Of a stretch of DNA of 64,000 bases, positions 42,967 to 51,378 are shown piece by piece. The position numbers were made by a program, and so were the translations under genes. The notes under the pieces were generated by a model that saw nothing but the letters and a program-made list of their open reading frames with translations, searched no databases and was not told where the DNA came from. Position 1 is the stretch's first letter. Every line of letters starts with the position of its first letter. Origin of the DNA: Oscillospiraceae bacterium (lineage in GTDB: Bacteria; Bacillota; Clostridia; Oscillospirales; Ruminococcaceae); assembly GCA_009776305.1 (NCBI GenBank), contig WRLY01000001.1:558001-622000 (forward strand). The letters are read 5' to 3'.

Positions 42967-42993
42967 TTCGGGGAGATTTTAAATCTCCCCGAA
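42967..42993. terminator. Bidirectional terminator between MGMT and the FAD reductase
   Basis: TTCGGGGAGATTT and its complement form a 13-bp stem around one base; CTTTTT follows on the plus strand. It overlaps the last codons of the minus-strand gene. Confidence 0.85.
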
Positions 42994-44076
42994 GTCTTTT
43001 TCTGTTCCTCCGACTATATCAATCGCGCCGACCCCGCTCTTCATAACGATTTTTCTTAAAAATCGGTTATACATCAGCGGGCATTTCAACAGTTTAAGCG
43101 TCAGCTTAAATCTTAATCCCGCCGTTTCTTTTTTATAGGCTTTTTGGTAAGCTTTGGCGTTACCCAAAGCTTTACCGAAAATCTTTCCTAAAATATATCC
43201 GCTCTCAATGGCGTAGCTGATTCCCTCAAGGGAGCTGGGACTAATCAGCCCCGCCGCTTCTCCGATTAAAAAGGCGTTGTCGCGAGCCATGCAAAACTGA
43301 AAGGGACTTGCGGCTCGCAAAACAAGACAGGCTTCGGTCTTAATCGGATTGCTGAAATCAAACCCAAACGGCGCAAGCCTTTGCTTCAATTTTTCAAAGC
43401 TTTTTCTCGCATCTTTGGGTTCAAACGCGCCCCCGAAAATAAAATGCTCGTTCTTAGAAAGCCCCCAGGCGTAGCAATCTGTAGTGCAGGGGTCAAATAT
43501 ACTCGCGTAAAAAGGGGCGGGGTTTTTATTTTTGTACCACTGCTGGATTGAAAGATAGGCTCTTGTTTTTTTGTTTGAAAAAATGCTTTTGCGGACAATG
43601 GAATTTGCACCGTCCGCCCCTATAATAAATCTTGCGGACACCATTTTATTTTCGCCGTTTTGGCTGTAAGAAACATTCCAGCCGCTTTTAGTTTTTTCCA
43701 CTCGTTTTACAATGCAGGGAGCCGCTATCTCAACATTTTCGGGAATCAGCGACTTTAGCCAAAGGTCAAATTTATGTCTGTCCATATTCATATAAAACCG
43801 CTGATAATGCCGCAGGAGTCCACTTTTAACATCAATGGTGCGGACGCTGAAAATCTGAGGGTTTACCAAAATGCTTTTAGGTAGCGTCAGCCCGAACCGC
43901 GACAGGGCTTTTTGTGCATCAGGCGCGAGTAAGCCTCCGCAAGGTTTGCGGAAGCTTACATTGTCTTGATTATCGGATTTCTTATCTAAAGCGATTACTT
44001 TAAACTCTTTCGGTAAAAAGCGCGCCAAAGTCGAGCCGGCAGGTCCGAGCCCTATGATTACAACGTCATATATCAT
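42979..44076 (-). CDS. FAD-dependent oxidoreductase, geranylgeranyl reductase family
   Basis: This 365-residue flavoprotein has an N-terminal dinucleotide site VIIGLGPAGSTLARFLP (about residues 6-22), GADGANSIVRKSIF (about 153-166) and FLIGEAAGLISPSSLEGISY (about 280-299). These fit the geranylgeranyl reductase/lycopene cyclase-like group; a C-terminal helical part follows. The substrate is unknown; isoprenoid or quinone-like compounds are typical. ATG at 44076 has AAGGGG 6 nt upstream and lies 11 bp inside the end of rex, so the two are translationally coupled. Confidence 0.85.
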   Translation of the reverse strand: MIYDVVIIGLGPAGSTLARFLPKEFKVIALDKKSDNQDNVSFRKPCGGLLAPDAQKALSRFGLTLPKSILVNPQIFSVRTIDVKSGLLRHYQRFYMNMDRHKFDLWLKSLIPENVEIAAPCIVKRVEKTKSGWNVSYSQNGENKMVSARFIIGADGANSIVRKSIFSNKKTRAYLSIQQWYKNKNPAPFYASIFDPCTTDCYAWGLSKNEHFIFGGAFEPKDARKSFEKLKQRLAPFGFDFSNPIKTEACLVLRAASPFQFCMARDNAFLIGEAAGLISPSSLEGISYAIESGYILGKIFGKALGNAKAYQKAYKKETAGLRFKLTLKLLKCPLMYNRFLRKIVMKSGVGAIDIVGGTEKDFGEI

Positions 44077-44719
44077 CGTCGCGCCCCTTGTCATTATTAA
44101 CGCTGTAGGCTAACGTCAAAAGGCTGTCCGCCAAATGCACGTTCTCCACAATGATATCATCATAGTGCAAATGAATGTCATAACTTGAGAAATTCCAAAA
44201 AGCCTTAACCCCGCAGGAAATAAGAGTTTCCGAAACCGTACCCGCGCTCTCTTTTGGTATACATAAAACCGCGATTTCAGGTTTTTCCTTATCGCAAAAC
44301 GCCCCGAGCTTAGACATGTGCCGAACCTCAACCCCGGCTATATTAATGCCTTCAAGCTGTAAATTTATATCAAAAATCCCAATAAGTTCACAACCGTTTT
44401 TTGAGGAGTCGAAGTGAATGGTCATAGCTCTGCCAAGGTTTCCCGCGCCTACAATAATGGCTTTCAGCTTTTTCTCAACGCCGATAATCTCGCCGATTTC
44501 ACGGCGCAGTTCCGACACGTTATAGCCGTAACCCTGTTGTCCGAAACCGCCGTAGCAATTTAAGTCCTGCCTGATTTGAGAAGCCGTAAGCTTCATACGC
44601 GCCGACATATCCCCCGAGGAAATTTTATTGATTCCCTCTTTCTGCAATTCGGCTAAAAACCTGTAATAGCGCGGCAGACGTCTGATTACAGAGCTTGAAA
44701 CATATTTTTTCGCGGGCAC
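44066..44719 (-). CDS. rex: Redox-sensing transcriptional repressor Rex
   Basis: This 217-residue protein has an N-terminal winged helix (VIRRLPRYYRFLAELQ, MKLTASQIRQDLNCYGGFGQ) and a Rossmann domain (VGAGNLGRAMTIHF, about residues 91-104) that senses NADH/NAD+. Rex leaves DNA when NADH is high. GTG at 44719 is the start, with GGAGGTG 8 nt upstream. It is the fourth gene of an operon with acn and icd, whose promoter carries a near-consensus Rex site (48729-48746), so autoregulation is likely. Confidence 0.95.
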   Translation of the reverse strand: MPAKKYVSSSVIRRLPRYYRFLAELQKEGINKISSGDMSARMKLTASQIRQDLNCYGGFGQQGYGYNVSELRREIGEIIGVEKKLKAIIVGAGNLGRAMTIHFDSSKNGCELIGIFDINLQLEGINIAGVEVRHMSKLGAFCDKEKPEIAVLCIPKESAGTVSETLISCGVKAFWNFSSYDIHLHYDDIIVENVHLADSLLTLAYSVNNDKGRDDDI

Positions 44720-44737: not shown

Positions 44738-45955
44738 TTATTGTTTTTCCATTATCTCTTGCAGTCTTTCGCCGACTTTAACTAAAAATTCTTCGGTATT
44801 AACCTTTACCTTTTGCGGCAGGGTTGAAATGGAGTATAAGTCTCCCGTCATAATACCATCTTCTATAGTTTCCTTGGCGGCTTTTTCAAGGTTGAGGGCA
44901 AAAATGGTAAGCTCCATATTGCCGTCAAGCTCGCCTCTTTTATAAAGCGCGCCCGTCCACGCGAACAGGGTAGCCACCGAGTTGGTTGAGGTTTCCTCGC
45001 CTTTCAGGTGCTTGTAATAATGCCTTGTCACCGTGCCGTGTGCCGCCTCGTATTCATAAGCGCCGCCGCGTGAAACCAATACCGACGTCATCATGCCGAG
45101 GCTACCGAAAGCTGTTGCCACCATGTCAGACATTACGTCGCCGTCGTAGTTTTTGCAAGCCCAAATAAATCCGCCGTCAGAGCGCATAACTCTTGCCACC
45201 GCGTCGTCTATGAGTGTGTAGAAATATTCAATCCCCGCCTCTTTGAACAGGTTCTTGTAAGCGGTTTCGTAAAGCTCGTCAAAAACATCTTTAAATCTGT
45301 GGTCGTATTTCTTGGAGATGGTGTCTTTGGTGGCGAACCAAAGGTCAAATTTCACCTCAAGCGCGTAGCAGAAACAGGAATGTGCGAAACTTTCAATACT
45401 CGCCTCGGTATTATGTTGCCCCTGAATAATCCCGCCCGAATTTTTGAAATTATGGATTAGATGTCGGCGCTCGCCATTTTTTCCGGTTATAACAAGCTCT
45501 GCTTTTTCGTCCTCAGCGACTATATCCTCTACCCCTTTATAAACGTCGCCGTAGGCGTGACGCGCAATTATGATGGGCTTTTTCCAGCTCGGCACGAGCG
45601 GCTCAATCCCTTTTACGATAATTGGGGCGCGGAAAACTGTGCCGTCAAGAATAGCCCTGATAGTGGCGTTTGGGGATTTCCACATTTCTTTCAGGTCGAA
45701 TTCTTCCATGCGCTGGGAGTTTGGGGTAATTGTAGCGCATTTTACCGCTACGCCGTATTTTTTGGTGGCGTTGGCACTGTCGATTGTGATTTGGTCGTTT
45801 GTTTCATTGCGTTTTTCAAGCCCTAAGTCGTAATATTCGGTTTTGAGGTCAATGTAAGGCAGGAGCAAAATCTCCTTTATCATCTTCCATATAACGCGGG
45901 TCATTTCGTCGCCGTCCATTTCGACGAGGGGGGTGGTCATTTTGATTTTTTCCAT
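44738..45955 (-). CDS. icd: Isocitrate dehydrogenase (NADP-type, eukaryote-like subfamily)
   Basis: This 405-residue enzyme decarboxylates isocitrate to 2-oxoglutarate. It begins [19 protein letters not shown] and has [20 protein letters not shown] and [20 protein letters not shown], features of the subfamily found in eukaryotes and some bacteria. Later blocks include [20 protein letters not shown]. The length fits. It is read from the acn promoter, 38 bp after the unknown gene and 18 bp before rex. Confidence 0.95.
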
Positions 45956-45993: not shown

Positions 45994-46653
45994 TTATGAA
46001 GATAAGAATTTAAAGAATTTTTTCAAACCTGATTCTTGCTTTCGGGGTGCGGGGACAGAGGGTGTATCGCGCCGCGCATCAGGTGCGGCGGCAGGAGGCG
46101 CAGGTGTAAAAAAACCGCAATAAGACTTGGAATATGGCGCGTTTTTTTCATCATAATTTATGACAAGCGCAAGCATACCTCCCGCATACAATGCGGCTGA
46201 TTCCCCGCCGTTTCTGACCTCGCCGACTTTCGCGCCGGATAGGTCGTAAGCTACCGCGACGGCGTTATTGCCGCTACCCGTGGCTTCAACCCTGCCTATT
46301 TTGATTGTTTCGGCTTGTTTTACTTTGGTTTTTTTGAGCCTGCCATCTTTAAATATATCCAAGACAGCGCCTTCTTTATCATAGTAAACATTGCCGTCCT
46401 CTGTAATAAATCCCGCCTTTTTTAAGAGCGCTCCTCTGCCGTACCAAATCACGTTGCCCTCTTTTTCGCTTTGCGAAACCCCGCCGAGGTTAAAGCTTGT
46501 ATTGTATATAGTATGGGTGTCTTTGCCGAGTTTCACGAAGCCTATTCCGAGCCCGTTGTTGTTATAGAAAGCGGGTGTGTCCTCCTTTACGTTCTCGAAA
46601 AATATGTTTGGCATTACACGGTGTTTTTCGTACTTTTTATTAAGGTCTTCCAT
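45994..46653 (-). CDS. Unknown protein between aconitase and isocitrate dehydrogenase
   Basis: I do not recognise this 219-residue protein. Its body (about residues 15-170) is rich in short strands with repeated turns such as [16 protein letters not shown] and [20 protein letters not shown], with no signal peptide or membrane helix. A Pro/Ala linker (about 180-205) ends in a basic amphipathic tail, [10 protein letters not shown], that could touch the membrane. ATG at 46653 is preferred (AGAGGA about 10 nt upstream). It sits with 36- and 38-bp gaps inside acn-icd-rex, so its expression should follow those genes. Confidence 0.8.
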
Positions 46654-46689
46654 ATTAAATACCATCCTCTGATACTTGAGCTTTTTAAA

Positions 46690-48636
46690 CTAATTCCCTT
46701 TTCTTGTAAGATTCAGCAGACCGCCGGCAAGTATCATATCCTTTTCCCTTTCGGAAAAGCCGCCTGAAAGCGCTGTTTCTGTCCCTGTAGTGAGGTTTTT
46801 AAGGACAAACTCTTCACCTTTTTGCAGTTTTTCTTTTACTCCTTCGAGAATTAATCGGTCGCCTTGTGCAACCTTTTCATAGTCCTCGGGGTTTTTAAAT
46901 ATGAGGGGGATAATTCCATTGTTTATTAAATTCTGTTTGTGAATACGGGCGAAAGACTTGCAAACTACGGCTTTTATTCCAAGATAAAGCGGGGCTAAAG
47001 CCGCGTGTTCTCTTGAACTGCCCTGCCCATAATTCGCGCCGCCTATGATAATCCCTCCGCCCGCCTCTTTTGCCCGTTTCGGAAAAGTTTCGTCGCAGAC
47101 AGTGAAGCAATATTCGCTTATAGCGGGTATGTTAGACCGCAGGGGCAAGATTTTCGCGCCTGCCGGCATGATGTGGTCGGTGGTGATATTGTCGCCGACT
47201 TTTAAAATCGCTTCGGCTTTTATTGAATCCTCAAGCGGAGAATTTTTCGGGAATGGCTTTATGTTCGGACCGCGCTGAATTTCGGCTTTTGCGGCTTCTT
47301 TTTCGTCAAGGGGCTTTATGACCATATTGTCGTTAATGAGGAACTTTTCGGGTTGTGCTGTTTCGGGGAATTTTCCGTATTCCCTCGGGTCGGTCAAAAC
47401 TCCGTTTATTGCTGAAACCGCCGCCGTTTCTGGGGAAAGGAGATAAACCTGCGCGTCTTTTGTGCCGCTCCTGCCCTCAAAGTTGCGGTTGAACGTTCTA
47501 AGTGACACGCCGCCCGACTTAGGCGACTGCCCCATACCGATACAAGGACCGCAGGCACTTTCCAAGATTCTTGCCCCCGCCCCGATTAAATCAGCTAAAG
47601 CGCCGTTTTCCGCCAGCATTTGATAAACTTGTTTTGAGCCGGGGGCAATCGAAAGGTCAACATTCGGGTGGACTGTTTTGCCCTTGAGAATAGCCGCCAC
47701 AGTCAACAAATCGGCTAACGAAGAATTTGTGCAAGAGCCGATACAAACCTGGTCGATTTTTATTTTACCTATGTCTTTTATTTTTTTCACGTTGTCGGGG
47801 CTGTGCGGGCAAGCCGCCATAGGTTCTAATTCCGATAAATCTATTTCGACAACGCTGTCATAAATCGCGTCGAGGTCGGCATCGAGGGGGATATAATCTT
47901 CCTCGCGCCCCTGCGCTTTCAAGAATTCTCTCGTAATTTCGTCAGATGGGAACAGGGAAGAGGTCGCGCCGAGTTCCGCGCCCATATTGGTAATTGTGGC
48001 GCGTTCGGGAACTGACAGGGTTTTTACGCCTTCACCCGTGTATTCCATAACCTTGCCCACGCCGCCTTTAACCGACAAAAGCCGCAAAACTTCCAAAATA
48101 ACGTCTTTGGCGCTTACGAAAGATTTCAGCTTGCCTTTAAGTTTTATATTGACGATTTGGGGCATATTTATATAATACGCGCCGCCCGCCATTGCCACGG
48201 CAACGTCCAAGCCCCCCGCCCCGATTGCCAGCATACCCAAGCCTCCGCCCGTCGGAGTGTGGGAATCTGAGCCTATAAGGGTTTTCCCCGGCTTACCGAA
48301 ACGTTCGAGATGCACCTGATGACAGATTCCGTTTCCCGGGCGTGAGAAATATATGCCGTATTTGTTGGCGACGCTTTGTATATAACGATGGTCGTCGGCG
48401 TTCTCAAAACCTGACTGGAGTGTGTTGTGGTCTATATATGCCACCGAACGCTCGGTTTTTACCCGACTTACGTCCATTGCTTCAAATTGCAGATACGCCA
48501 TAGTTCCCGTTGCGTCCTGGGTCAGCGTCTGGTCGATTTTTAAGCCTGTTTCCCTGCCTTTAGCAGGAATTTCTTCGGCGGCTGTGCCGTCTGTAAGATG
48601 TTCTTTTATTATTTTTTCTGTTATGGTTAAGCCCAC
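46690..48636 (-). CDS. acn: Aconitate hydratase
   Basis: This 648-residue iron-sulfur enzyme interconverts citrate and isocitrate. Cluster cysteines are visible in CIGSCTNSS (about residues 296-304) and ESACGPCIGMGQSP (about 358-371). Active-site blocks include QDATGTMAYLQFEAM, GSDSHTPTGGGLGMLAIGAG and, in the swivel domain, GGANYGQGSSREHAA. The length fits the shorter, mitochondrial/homoaconitase-like type. It is the first gene of the acn-unknown-icd-rex-FAD reductase operon, which lacks citrate synthase. Confidence 0.94.
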   Translation of the reverse strand: MGLTITEKIIKEHLTDGTAAEEIPAKGRETGLKIDQTLTQDATGTMAYLQFEAMDVSRVKTERSVAYIDHNTLQSGFENADDHRYIQSVANKYGIYFSRPGNGICHQVHLERFGKPGKTLIGSDSHTPTGGGLGMLAIGAGGLDVAVAMAGGAYYINMPQIVNIKLKGKLKSFVSAKDVILEVLRLLSVKGGVGKVMEYTGEGVKTLSVPERATITNMGAELGATSSLFPSDEITREFLKAQGREEDYIPLDADLDAIYDSVVEIDLSELEPMAACPHSPDNVKKIKDIGKIKIDQVCIGSCTNSSLADLLTVAAILKGKTVHPNVDLSIAPGSKQVYQMLAENGALADLIGAGARILESACGPCIGMGQSPKSGGVSLRTFNRNFEGRSGTKDAQVYLLSPETAAVSAINGVLTDPREYGKFPETAQPEKFLINDNMVIKPLDEKEAAKAEIQRGPNIKPFPKNSPLEDSIKAEAILKVGDNITTDHIMPAGAKILPLRSNIPAISEYCFTVCDETFPKRAKEAGGGIIIGGANYGQGSSREHAALAPLYLGIKAVVCKSFARIHKQNLINNGIIPLIFKNPEDYEKVAQGDRLILEGVKEKLQKGEEFVLKNLTTGTETALSGGFSEREKDMILAGGLLNLTRKGN

Positions 48637-48705: not shown

Positions 48706-48746
48706 ATTATACTATAAAATCAGACTGCTTGTCAAGTAATTAACAA
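48706..48746 (-). promoter_or_regulatory. Promoter of the acn operon with overlapping Rex-type operator
   Basis: Minus-strand TTGACA (48735-48730), 18 nt, TATAAT (48711-48706). The 18 bases 48729-48746 read TTGTCAA-GTAA-TTAACAA, one mismatch from the clostridial Rex consensus TTGTTAA-N4-TTAACAA. They cover the -35 box, a position where a repressor would block polymerase. Confidence 0.8.
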
Positions 48747-48771
48747 TTTTAAGCAATTTTCCTTAAAATTG
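48744..48771. repeat. 10-bp inverted repeat between divergent promoters
   Basis: CAATTTTAAG (48744-48753) and CTTAAAATTG (48762-48771) are exact reverse complements around 8 nt. They lie between the acn promoter and the GHL10 promoter and could be another operator. Confidence 0.5.
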
Positions 48772-48781
48772 TGTGAAAAAG

Positions 48782-48810
48782 TTGACATTTTCGCTCGAAA
48801 ATGCTATAAT
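48782..48810 (+). promoter_or_regulatory. Consensus promoter of the GHL10 lipoprotein gene
   Basis: TTGACA (48782-48787), 17 nt, TATAAT (48805-48810): a perfect sigma-A consensus. Confidence 0.9.
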
Positions 48811-48840: not shown

Positions 48841-50400
48841 TTGATAACAAAATCGTTAAAATTTATTCTCCCCATTGTTCTTGTCTTTTGCATTTTGCTT
48901 GCCGCCTGCTCGCAGGAAACTCCGGTGCGGCTTTTGAACGCGCAGGGCTTTGACGGTGTGGAAATTGCAGAAATTGTTATAAATAACTCGGATTATGATT
49001 TGCCGCCTCCGCTTGAAATTGCGGAGAATTCGCAAACCACCCCTCCTGCTGTTACGACCGCAACCACAACCGAGCGGCCGGTTTCGACGTCTGAAACAAC
49101 CCCTGCCGCGACTGTTCCTGCGGTTACTACTGCGGCAACAACCGCGCCGCTCCCCTCAACCTTTGCCGCAACTCCGTCAGAAACCACTGCCCCGCCCGTC
49201 ACAACCACCCCGCCAACTACTTCTACAGTAGCAACAACCACCCTGCCGACCCCGACTACTACGAGAAATACGCCGCTTAATCACAGCAATGTCAGGGGTG
49301 TTTGGATTTCATATATAGAATTACAGAGTTCTTTTTCCGGCAGAACAGCAGAAAGTTTTCGCGCGGCTTTTGCCGAGAAGATGGAAAACTGCAAATCTCT
49401 CGGAATCAACACTGTTTATGTGCATTTACGTGCATTCGGCGACGCTTATTATGAATCGGAAATTTTCCCGTGGGCAAAACCAATAACCGGAAATATCGGA
49501 CAAGCCCCCGGCTTTGACCCGCTCAAAATAATGCTTGAAGAAGCTCATGCACGGGGTATTTCTTTCCACGGTTGGCTAAATCCCATGCGTCTGCCCGGCG
49601 ATTCGGACATGAGCAAAATAAGCACGGATTTGCCGCTCGGTAAATGGTACAACGGCGGCGCTGAAAATAAAAAAGGTACTTTTATTGTTAAAAGCGGAGA
49701 CAACTGGTTTTTAAATCCCGCCTACCCCGAGGTCAGAAAGCTGATAACCGACGGTGCGGCGGAAATTCTCAGAAACTATAATATTGACGGACTTCACATA
49801 GACGATTATTTTTACCCGCCGAACACGGCTGAAAGCTTTGACCGTGCGGCTTTTTCTGCAAGCGACGTCGGACTTTCCGGCGGTCATGCTAACCTTTCGG
49901 ATTTTCGCCTTGAAAACTGCACCAAAATGGTAAAATCACTTTATGAAGTCACAAAAGCCGCAAATCCCGCCCTGCTTTTCGGAATCAGTCCGCAGGGGAA
50001 TATTGAAAACTGCTACGCCCTTTACGCCGACGTAAGGAAATGGGCGTCTCAGGTAGGGTATTGCGATTATATCGCGCCGCAGCTTTATTACGGCTTTAAT
50101 AATGCTACGCAACCGTTTGACAAATGTCTTGAACAATGGGAGAATCTTGTGAAAAACAGCGGTGTTAAGCTTATTCCGGGTCTTGCGATTTATAAAATAG
50201 GGCTCGAAGACGCTTGGGCAGGCGATTCGGGGAGAACCGAGTGGCTCAATTACGACGACATTTTAAAACGCCAAATGGATTTAGCCGTACAAGCGCAAAA
50301 TTACGGCGGCGTAATCTTTTTCAGCTACAATTATTTATTCGCTCCGGGATTTAACACCCCTGCGATTAATACGCAGTTGACCAAGGCGGGAGTAAGATAA
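48841..50400 (+). CDS. GHL10-family (DUF187) glycosidase-like lipoprotein
   Basis: This 519-residue protein starts at TTG (48841), 6 nt after GGAGG. It has a lipoprotein signal ending LLAAC, then a Thr/Pro-rich linker (about residues 55-145). The catalytic GHL10 domain begins at VRGVWISYIELQ (about 152). Further blocks are GINTVYVHLRAFGDAYYESE, HGWLNPMRLP, DGLHIDDYFYPP and YCDYIAPQLYYGFN. The E. coli member DigH cuts glycan strands that amidases have stripped of peptides, so a cell-wall role is likely. A second GHL10 domain is fused to an amidase two genes downstream. Confidence 0.9.
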   Translation: MITKSLKFILPIVLVFCILLAACSQETPVRLLNAQGFDGVEIAEIVINNSDYDLPPPLEIAENSQTTPPAVTTATTTERPVSTSETTPAATVPAVTTAATTAPLPSTFAATPSETTAPPVTTTPPTTSTVATTTLPTPTTTRNTPLNHSNVRGVWISYIELQSSFSGRTAESFRAAFAEKMENCKSLGINTVYVHLRAFGDAYYESEIFPWAKPITGNIGQAPGFDPLKIMLEEAHARGISFHGWLNPMRLPGDSDMSKISTDLPLGKWYNGGAENKKGTFIVKSGDNWFLNPAYPEVRKLITDGAAEILRNYNIDGLHIDDYFYPPNTAESFDRAAFSASDVGLSGGHANLSDFRLENCTKMVKSLYEVTKAANPALLFGISPQGNIENCYALYADVRKWASQVGYCDYIAPQLYYGFNNATQPFDKCLEQWENLVKNSGVKLIPGLAIYKIGLEDAWAGDSGRTEWLNYDDILKRQMDLAVQAQNYGGVIFFSYNYLFAPGFNTPAINTQLTKAGVR

Positions 50401-50421: not shown

Positions 50422-51378
50422 GTGTTTTTAGATATAAAGGACGATACAAACAATTTATTTAATTTGATAAATGTTGAAAGCTGTCCGCGCCTTGACATTA
50501 TGAAAGGCGTAGGGGACGAAACTGTTGACTTGATTGTGACTGACCCACCCTATAATCTTTCAAAGGATTACGGAAACGATAGCGATAAGCTTACGCATGA
50601 CGAATACATTGATTTTTCACACCAATGGTTAAAGGAAGCAAAACGAGTATTAAAACCTACGGGAACGCTTTATCTTTTTATGGGAGTTCGTTATATTTCT
50701 TATGTTTATAAAATTCTTGAGCAAGAACTAAACTTTGTTTTTAATTCATGGATTTCATGGTGTTATACGCAAGGTATAGGAAAAACAAAGGGATTTAGTC
50801 CGCGACATGATGATATTCTTATGTTTACAAAAACAAAGGATTTTAAATTTAACTTGGACAATATACGCGTTCCTCAAAAATATTATAGAAGCGTAAATAA
50901 TATGCGCGGAGCAAATCCGGGCAATGTATGGGAATTTTCGCATATACACTATTGTCAGGAAAACCGCCAAAATCACCCCACGCAAAAGCCCGAAGCATTA
51001 TTTGAAAGAATGATACTTGCGTCAACCGACAAGGACGATTTTGTTTTAGACCCGTTTTGCGGTTCGGGCACCGCCTTGCGGGTATGTCAGCAAACATCAA
51101 GAAAAGGTATGGGAATTGAAATAAATAATGAATATGTGCAAATGACCAAAGAGCGTTTAAACAAAACGTTCAACGGATTTGACAGCATAGACGAACGGAT
51201 GACGCGAATACCAAATGACTTAAACGACGAAAAAATACGGGAGGAATACATTTTAAACCATATAGATTGGTTTTTGCATAATCATCCTGACGAGGTTAAT
51301 GATTTTATGAAAAGAGTAAGCGAAAAATATCCTGCAGTAACTCAATCATCGTTTGAAGTAAATAGAATTGCTTTATGA
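50422..51378 (+). CDS. Solitary DNA methyltransferase (N4-cytosine/N6-adenine type)
   Basis: This 318-residue enzyme has catalytic motif IV LIVTDPPYNLSKDYG (about residues 38-52) before the AdoMet motif LDPFCGSGTALR (about 207-218), the order of beta-class amino-methyltransferases. NHPTQKPEALFERMI precedes the latter. No restriction endonuclease gene is adjacent. The gene is visibly richer in A/T than its neighbours, which suggests transfer. The start is uncertain: GTG at 50422 is used; an ATG three bases earlier in another frame stops after four codons. It follows the GHL10 stop by 21 bp. Confidence 0.87.
   Translation: MFLDIKDDTNNLFNLINVESCPRLDIMKGVGDETVDLIVTDPPYNLSKDYGNDSDKLTHDEYIDFSHQWLKEAKRVLKPTGTLYLFMGVRYISYVYKILEQELNFVFNSWISWCYTQGIGKTKGFSPRHDDILMFTKTKDFKFNLDNIRVPQKYYRSVNNMRGANPGNVWEFSHIHYCQENRQNHPTQKPEALFERMILASTDKDDFVLDPFCGSGTALRVCQQTSRKGMGIEINNEYVQMTKERLNKTFNGFDSIDERMTRIPNDLNDEKIREEYILNHIDWFLHNHPDEVNDFMKRVSEKYPAVTQSSFEVNRIAL

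Follow-up and report, generated by a model that had tools for sequence, protein, structure and literature searches.

A predicted Rex operator over the −35 box of an acn-icd-rex operon in an Oscillospiraceae bacterium and its relatives

Introduction

The closest described relative of the locus reported here is found in Caproicibacterium lactatifermentans, where rex lies in an operon with the aconitate hydratase and isocitrate dehydrogenase genes (acn and icd); Table 1 of the 2022 paper gives the order as acn-GJQ69_04730-icd-rex, with the predicted Rex site TTGTGAATGGATTGACAA (PMC9600882). The same source also predicts Rex sites at thl, cat, ldh, rnf, hydA and other genes. In Clostridium thermocellum, isocitrate dehydrogenase (Clo1313_1944) and rex are both targets with DAP-seq peaks, the motif was confirmed by gel shift, and Rex sites at NADH-producing enzymes are called counter-intuitive (PMC8457756). 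Deletion of rex in Caldicellulosiruptor bescii brought 2-oxoglutarate down to 18% of the parental level (PMC6391272). A literature search for rex with aconitate hydratase in Ruminococcus and redox found no paper.

Here, we describe a locus of an Oscillospiraceae bacterium in which a Rex-type palindrome covers the −35 box of a promoter upstream of acn, icd and rex, and we compare it with the corresponding loci of related genomes.

Results

A palindrome over a consensus promoter

The window, by which we mean the whole 64,000-nt stretch of DNA that was analysed, carries at positions 48729-48746 the sequence TTGTCAAGTAATTAACAA, whose coordinates and letters were exact in a sequence check. It forms an 18-bp imperfect palindrome (TTGTCAA-GTAA-TTAACAA, with no strand assigned) that a motif search and comparison with relatives, about half of which keep it, mark as a candidate Rex-type operator. 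Both half-sites fit TTGTYAA exactly. Read on the minus strand the palindrome becomes TTGTTAA-TTAC-TTGACAA, and its last half, on the acn side, contains the −35 box TTGACA (48735-48730) of a minus-strand promoter that continues after 18 bp with the −10 box TATAAT (48711-48706). This promoter scores 12/12 in the promoter scan, and the GTG start codon of acn lies 99 nt downstream of the beginning of its −35 box. The original prediction had placed an 18-bp palindrome over the −35 box of a TTGACA-18-TATAAT promoter, and this proved exact. By its overlap with the −35 box of a perfect promoter, the palindrome is placed to block transcription from it.

Such an arrangement could arise by chance if a strong −35 box (TTGACA plus A) happened to lie beside an AT-rich stretch reading TTGTTAA. 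Because the −35 box makes up one half of the site, independent evidence comes from the other half only. Matches with two mismatches are at chance level in the window, with 9 found vs 6.5 expected from shuffles, a result that favors coincidence. Exact TTGTNAANNNNTTNACAA, which occurs once in the window, is expected just 0.02 times (2 of 100 shuffles reach one occurrence), and this speaks against it. The exact motif occurs once in the organism's own genome (1.54 Mb, 71% complete), as does a backwards-pattern control; the match is therefore unremarkable by itself, and it is its location that is remarkable.

The operon and its Rex protein

Family models identify four of the genes that follow this promoter on the minus strand. 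These are acn (aconitate hydratase, 648 aa, GTG start; 46690-48636; NF005558, 997 bits), icd (isocitrate dehydrogenase, of NADP type by family model; 44738-45955; NF006156, 635 bits), rex (redox-sensing repressor; 44066-44719; PF06971 for the DNA-binding N-terminus, PF02629 or CoA_binding, and NF003990 at 277 bits) and a gene for a geranylgeranyl-reductase-like FAD-binding protein (42979-44094; NF008519, 501 bits) whose start overlaps the end of rex. Between acn and icd, on the same strand, lies a 223-aa open reading frame (orf223; 45994-46665) that matches nothing in Pfam or NCBIfam at E 0.001. The promoter had been predicted to read into acn, an unknown gene, icd, rex and an FAD gene, and the family models confirm the four genes other than the unknown one. 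From the coordinates, acn, orf223, icd and rex are separated by 24, 38 and 18 nt. A terminator scan found no minus-strand terminator-like site in the gaps between the operon genes and one after the last gene, with a 12-pair stem, at the end of the FAD gene (42967-42993, minus strand). The five genes from acn to the FAD gene are likely to form a single transcript.

A search of the own genome gave one rex match. The encoded protein combines a DNA-binding N-terminus with a Rossmann domain (PF06971 and PF02629) and reaches 276.9 bits with the Rex equivalog model NF003990, the cut-off of which is 233. Its best sequence match among solved chains is 3wg9_A, a solved Rex, with which it shares a near-identical segment (TASQIRQDLN and GGFGQQGYGYNV). 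In an alignment of 25 sequences, the window's Rex included, most positions of the TASQIRQDLN region, which we take to be the DNA-contacting part of the protein, are invariant or nearly so. The glycine-rich motif G91-A-G93..G96 and D117, which presumably have an NAD-related role, are invariant in the alignment. Proteins of the Rex family release DNA on binding NADH.

Gene order in relatives

We compared the locus with a genus set of 60 genomes, a sample of a larger group, 45 of which have a rex match. Among the 40 congeneric rex loci taken, 36 have acn and icd upstream of rex; in the remaining 4, icd is present and the contigs stop short of acn. A rex scan of named genomes, from which the best 80 of 598 matches were used (4 of these loci being genus-set loci under a name), brought in titles of Ruminococcus, Ruminiclostridium, Caproiciproducens and Oscillospiraceae bacterium. 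Of these best 80 of 598 matches, 47 have an acn gene of at least 50% identity no more than 3.5 kb upstream of rex; the figure is 38 of 60 when only those with at least 5 kb upstream are counted, and in one locus (L108) acn also precedes rex, slightly beyond 3.5 kb. The layout had been expected to be uncommon. That view does not survive: acn-icd-rex is the usual neighbourhood of rex in the sampled genus and is frequent in the named loci, and the same order with a predicted Rex site was already printed in 2022 (PMC9600882).

Across the 120 compared loci (the 40 congeneric ones and the best 80 of 598 named matches), some of which stop near rex, the FAD gene adjoins rex solely in L035, and a tblastn search with orf223 (E 1e-8) found no match. 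In relatives, acn and icd are about 10 to 1,770 nt apart, and the space between them contains varied open reading frames or none, much like a slot whose contents are exchanged. In some loci, a 387-392-aa dehydrogenase of the isocitrate/isopropylmalate superfamily takes the position of icd, and rex is retained. The four such dehydrogenases scanned (L107:8763-9938, L149:8816-9982, L154:8796-9959 and L171:8821-9981) fall below every listed curated cut-off; the site persists in L107, L149 and L154 and is absent in L171.

Upstream of acn, in the window as in many congeneric loci, lies a divergent GHL10 glycoside-hydrolase-like gene (48841-50400), followed in the window by an adenine-specific DNA methyltransferase gene (50422-51378; N6_N4_Mtase, CcrM-like below cut-off). 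The promoter of the GHL10 gene, TTGACA-17-TATAAT, is a perfect consensus match, and a weaker Rex-like palindrome with two mismatches (48771-48788) overlaps its −35 box. In L036, the one relative compared by eye, this palindrome is not kept, and we dropped the idea of the GHL10 gene as a second Rex target.

Conservation of the site at acn promoters

From 123 loci, 80 included the acn start, 74 of these had a promoter by the rule of our script (six were dropped), and 70 were left without duplicates. Of the 70 acn promoters, a set that includes the window's, 34 have the upstream half TTGTNAA at a distance of exactly 4 nt above the −35 box when one mismatch is allowed, and 19 of these copies are exact. 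When 599 other promoters found on these contigs were put through the test, 9 had the half-site (2 without mismatch). Any of 15 other spacings left at most 2 of the 70 acn promoters with a match. Since the −35 box served to pick both promoter sets, its sequence cannot account for the excess (Fisher p 2e-29 with the kinship of the sequences ignored, a value that overstates the case because the sequences are related). This recurrence of the other half, at a single spacing, argues strongly against coincidence, which we regard as highly improbable.

A good site (matrix score 15) is present in 36 of 74 acn operons and absent in 38. Conservation upstream of orthologous acn operons had been named as a check on the prediction, which is not refuted, with a good site in only 36 of the 74. 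On the acn tree the sites are scattered, and parsimony requires at least 20 changes, at least 12 of which are forced by well-supported branches. Among the nearest kin of the window, the site is perfect in L035 and L036, degenerate in L037 and L040, and absent from L038, L039 and L219; L038 and L039 carry rex.

A few of the loci that lack the usual site show other placements. In L052/L114 and G037, ATGTTAAGGTATTAACAA overlaps the end of the −10 box, and in L118, L139 and L153 weaker palindromes have the −35 box as their left half; both groups are too few to count. L134 has a one-mismatch match directly before rex, the systematic search having covered the region upstream of acn.

The site and rex across the genus

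A match to acn of at least 65% identity was found in 59 of the 60 genomes; among the matches listed, G016 has one of 36% only. Nine genomes have acn-icd without an adjoining rex and none elsewhere in the genome, one of the nine being 82% complete. Five loci, in which contigs or stretches stop before the position of rex, were set aside. When scored with the matrix, which was trained partly on rex-bearing loci, the site is present in 20 of 41 rex-bearing and 0 of 9 rex-less loci (p 0.006). A neutral pattern with at most one mismatch gives 18 of 41 vs 1 of 9 (p 0.07), the same pattern at two mismatches 24 of 41 vs 2 of 9 (p 0.05), and the clostridial consensus with up to three mismatches 23 of 41 vs 4 of 9 (p 0.39). 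Tree-paired contrasts of site and rex loss did not reach significance, and the pairs that differ all go the expected way. Under the neutral definition, the tie between site loss and rex loss is only a trend.

Genome-wide, one-mismatch sites number 193 vs 98 in the control for the 45 rex genomes and 31 vs 29 for the nine rex-less ones (Fisher p 0.039 for the difference in excess); the six genomes outside these classes have 16 vs 11. Without the 18 acn sites, the rex genomes still have 175 vs 98, and the difference from the rex-less genomes is then at p 0.08. This excess fits a motif that Rex reads and that probably marks targets other than acn as well.

The site could also be a conserved palindrome bound by another regulator, Crp/Fnr-type or citrate-responsive, with rex a mere neighbour. 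TTGTNAA-N4-TTNACAA indeed resembles Crp/Fnr palindromes, several rex-bearing relatives have no site, and loss of rex is not clearly linked to loss of the site. The Crp core, however, is TGTGA, unlike the upstream half-sites of the acn promoters. These are mostly TTGTCAA or TTGTTAA, the published clostridial Rex type (PMC8457756, PMC9600882). The genome-wide excess of the motif is, moreover, seen with rex and not without it, and rex sits in the same operon. We therefore hold a different regulator to be improbable.

The strict pattern TTGTYAA-N4-TTRACAA has 13 matches in the 60 genomes, 8 of them upstream of acn (in G000, G017, G034, G038, G051, G054, G057 and G059), vs 6 for the reversed control. 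The wider TTGTNAA-N4-TTNACAA has 51 exact matches in the genus vs 34 in the control. That Rex serves its own operon alone would fit the strict matches off acn (5 vs 6 in the control) but fits poorly with the wider counts, and we set this idea aside. From the 51 vs 34 exact matches and the 175 vs 98 one-mismatch sites outside acn, it is probable that Rex has further targets in the genus. The own genome has 18 one-mismatch sites vs 7 in the control; besides the acn site there are 17, of which 11 fall inside open reading frames of at least 60 aa and 6 between them. A scan of 10 proteins encoded near these sites covered, among others, a pyridoxine-kinase-like gene, dnaA and a Cys/Met PLP enzyme, none of which is to our knowledge a usual Rex target. 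The site near dnaA is a one-mismatch Rex-like sequence 29 bp upstream of the gene (L091:2925-2942). A further scan of 10 proteins included a glyceraldehyde-3-phosphate dehydrogenase of G041 whose gene has a site 80 bp upstream; genes of this type are among the Rex targets given for C. thermocellum (PMC8457756).

Discussion

We consider it very probable that 48729-48746 is the operator for the Rex that the operon itself encodes in its fourth gene, and that Rex bound there blocks its own promoter. The Rex-operator reading and the autoregulation put forward in the original prediction find strong support in the fixed place of the site over the acn −35 box in relatives and in the neighbouring Rex, which carries the DNA-binding segment usual for the family. 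NADH-free Rex on the palindrome would cover the −35 box and turn off its own transcript, from acn through orf223, icd and rex to the FAD protein; at high NADH, Rex would leave the DNA and the acn promoter would be freed. Binding by the locus's own Rex, the single transcript, the response to NADH and the direction of control are all what we infer from sequence.

Repression of an NADPH-forming enzyme at low NADH is a departure from textbook Rex logic, and the control proposed here would not follow that logic, because the controlled enzymes make 2-oxoglutarate and, by family, NADPH. The drop of 2-oxoglutarate in the C. bescii rex deletion is not what release of the acn-icd branch would give; both the organism and its operon differ from ours.

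A variant compatible with the operator reading is that the site acts as a weak brake on the dosage of Rex, with little effect of NADH on acn and icd output. Autoregulated repressors often act as dosage brakes, and acn operons without a good site are frequent (38 of 74). The rex transcript of C. lactatifermentans, moreover, did not differ between glucose and lactate as carbon sources (PMC9600882). The site, on the other hand, precedes acn, the first gene of the operon. A simple dosage brake is a serious alternative, possible rather than probable in our judgement.

Returning to the operator reading, Rex in these bacteria might be mainly a local governor of the branch from citrate to 2-oxoglutarate, with its own operon as the strongest and most conserved target, a −35 site that is often lost and gained, and the usual fermentation targets weak or absent. 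The probable existence of other targets makes this less likely, and we find it doubtful. If Rex does govern acn and icd in these fermenters, the supply of 2-oxoglutarate and NADPH would be tied to the NADH pool. It would also present an awkward case, a Rex set over enzymes that make rather than use reducing power, that can be tested in a compact system of one operon for which natural site-less and rex-less relatives are available.

Compared with described systems, the window is most like C. lactatifermentans, with which it shares the order acn-orf-icd-rex and a predicted Rex site before acn (PMC9600882). The site in that species is predicted at −243, whereas the window's site lies across the −35 box, with the end farther from acn 110 nt away from the start codon; the window also has an FAD gene after rex, unlike the C. 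lactatifermentans operon as given in that source. The C. thermocellum Rex_2471 regulon has the consensus TTGTTAA-N4-TTAACAA, which is the type of the window's site, but its rex and isocitrate dehydrogenase genes are separate targets rather than members of one operon (PMC8457756). The Rex proteins of C. acetobutylicum and C. kluyveri, as described in PMC9600882, share the repressor family and the consensus, yet their rex genes are tightly linked to reverse beta-oxidation genes, unlike that of the window. As PMC9600882 contains both the layout and the predicted control, these are already in print, as a prediction, and the window is a genuine new instance of an arrangement known from the literature. 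The present analysis adds that, in many genomes, the site keeps a fixed register over the −35 box, that it is also often missing, and how relatives that have no rex compare.
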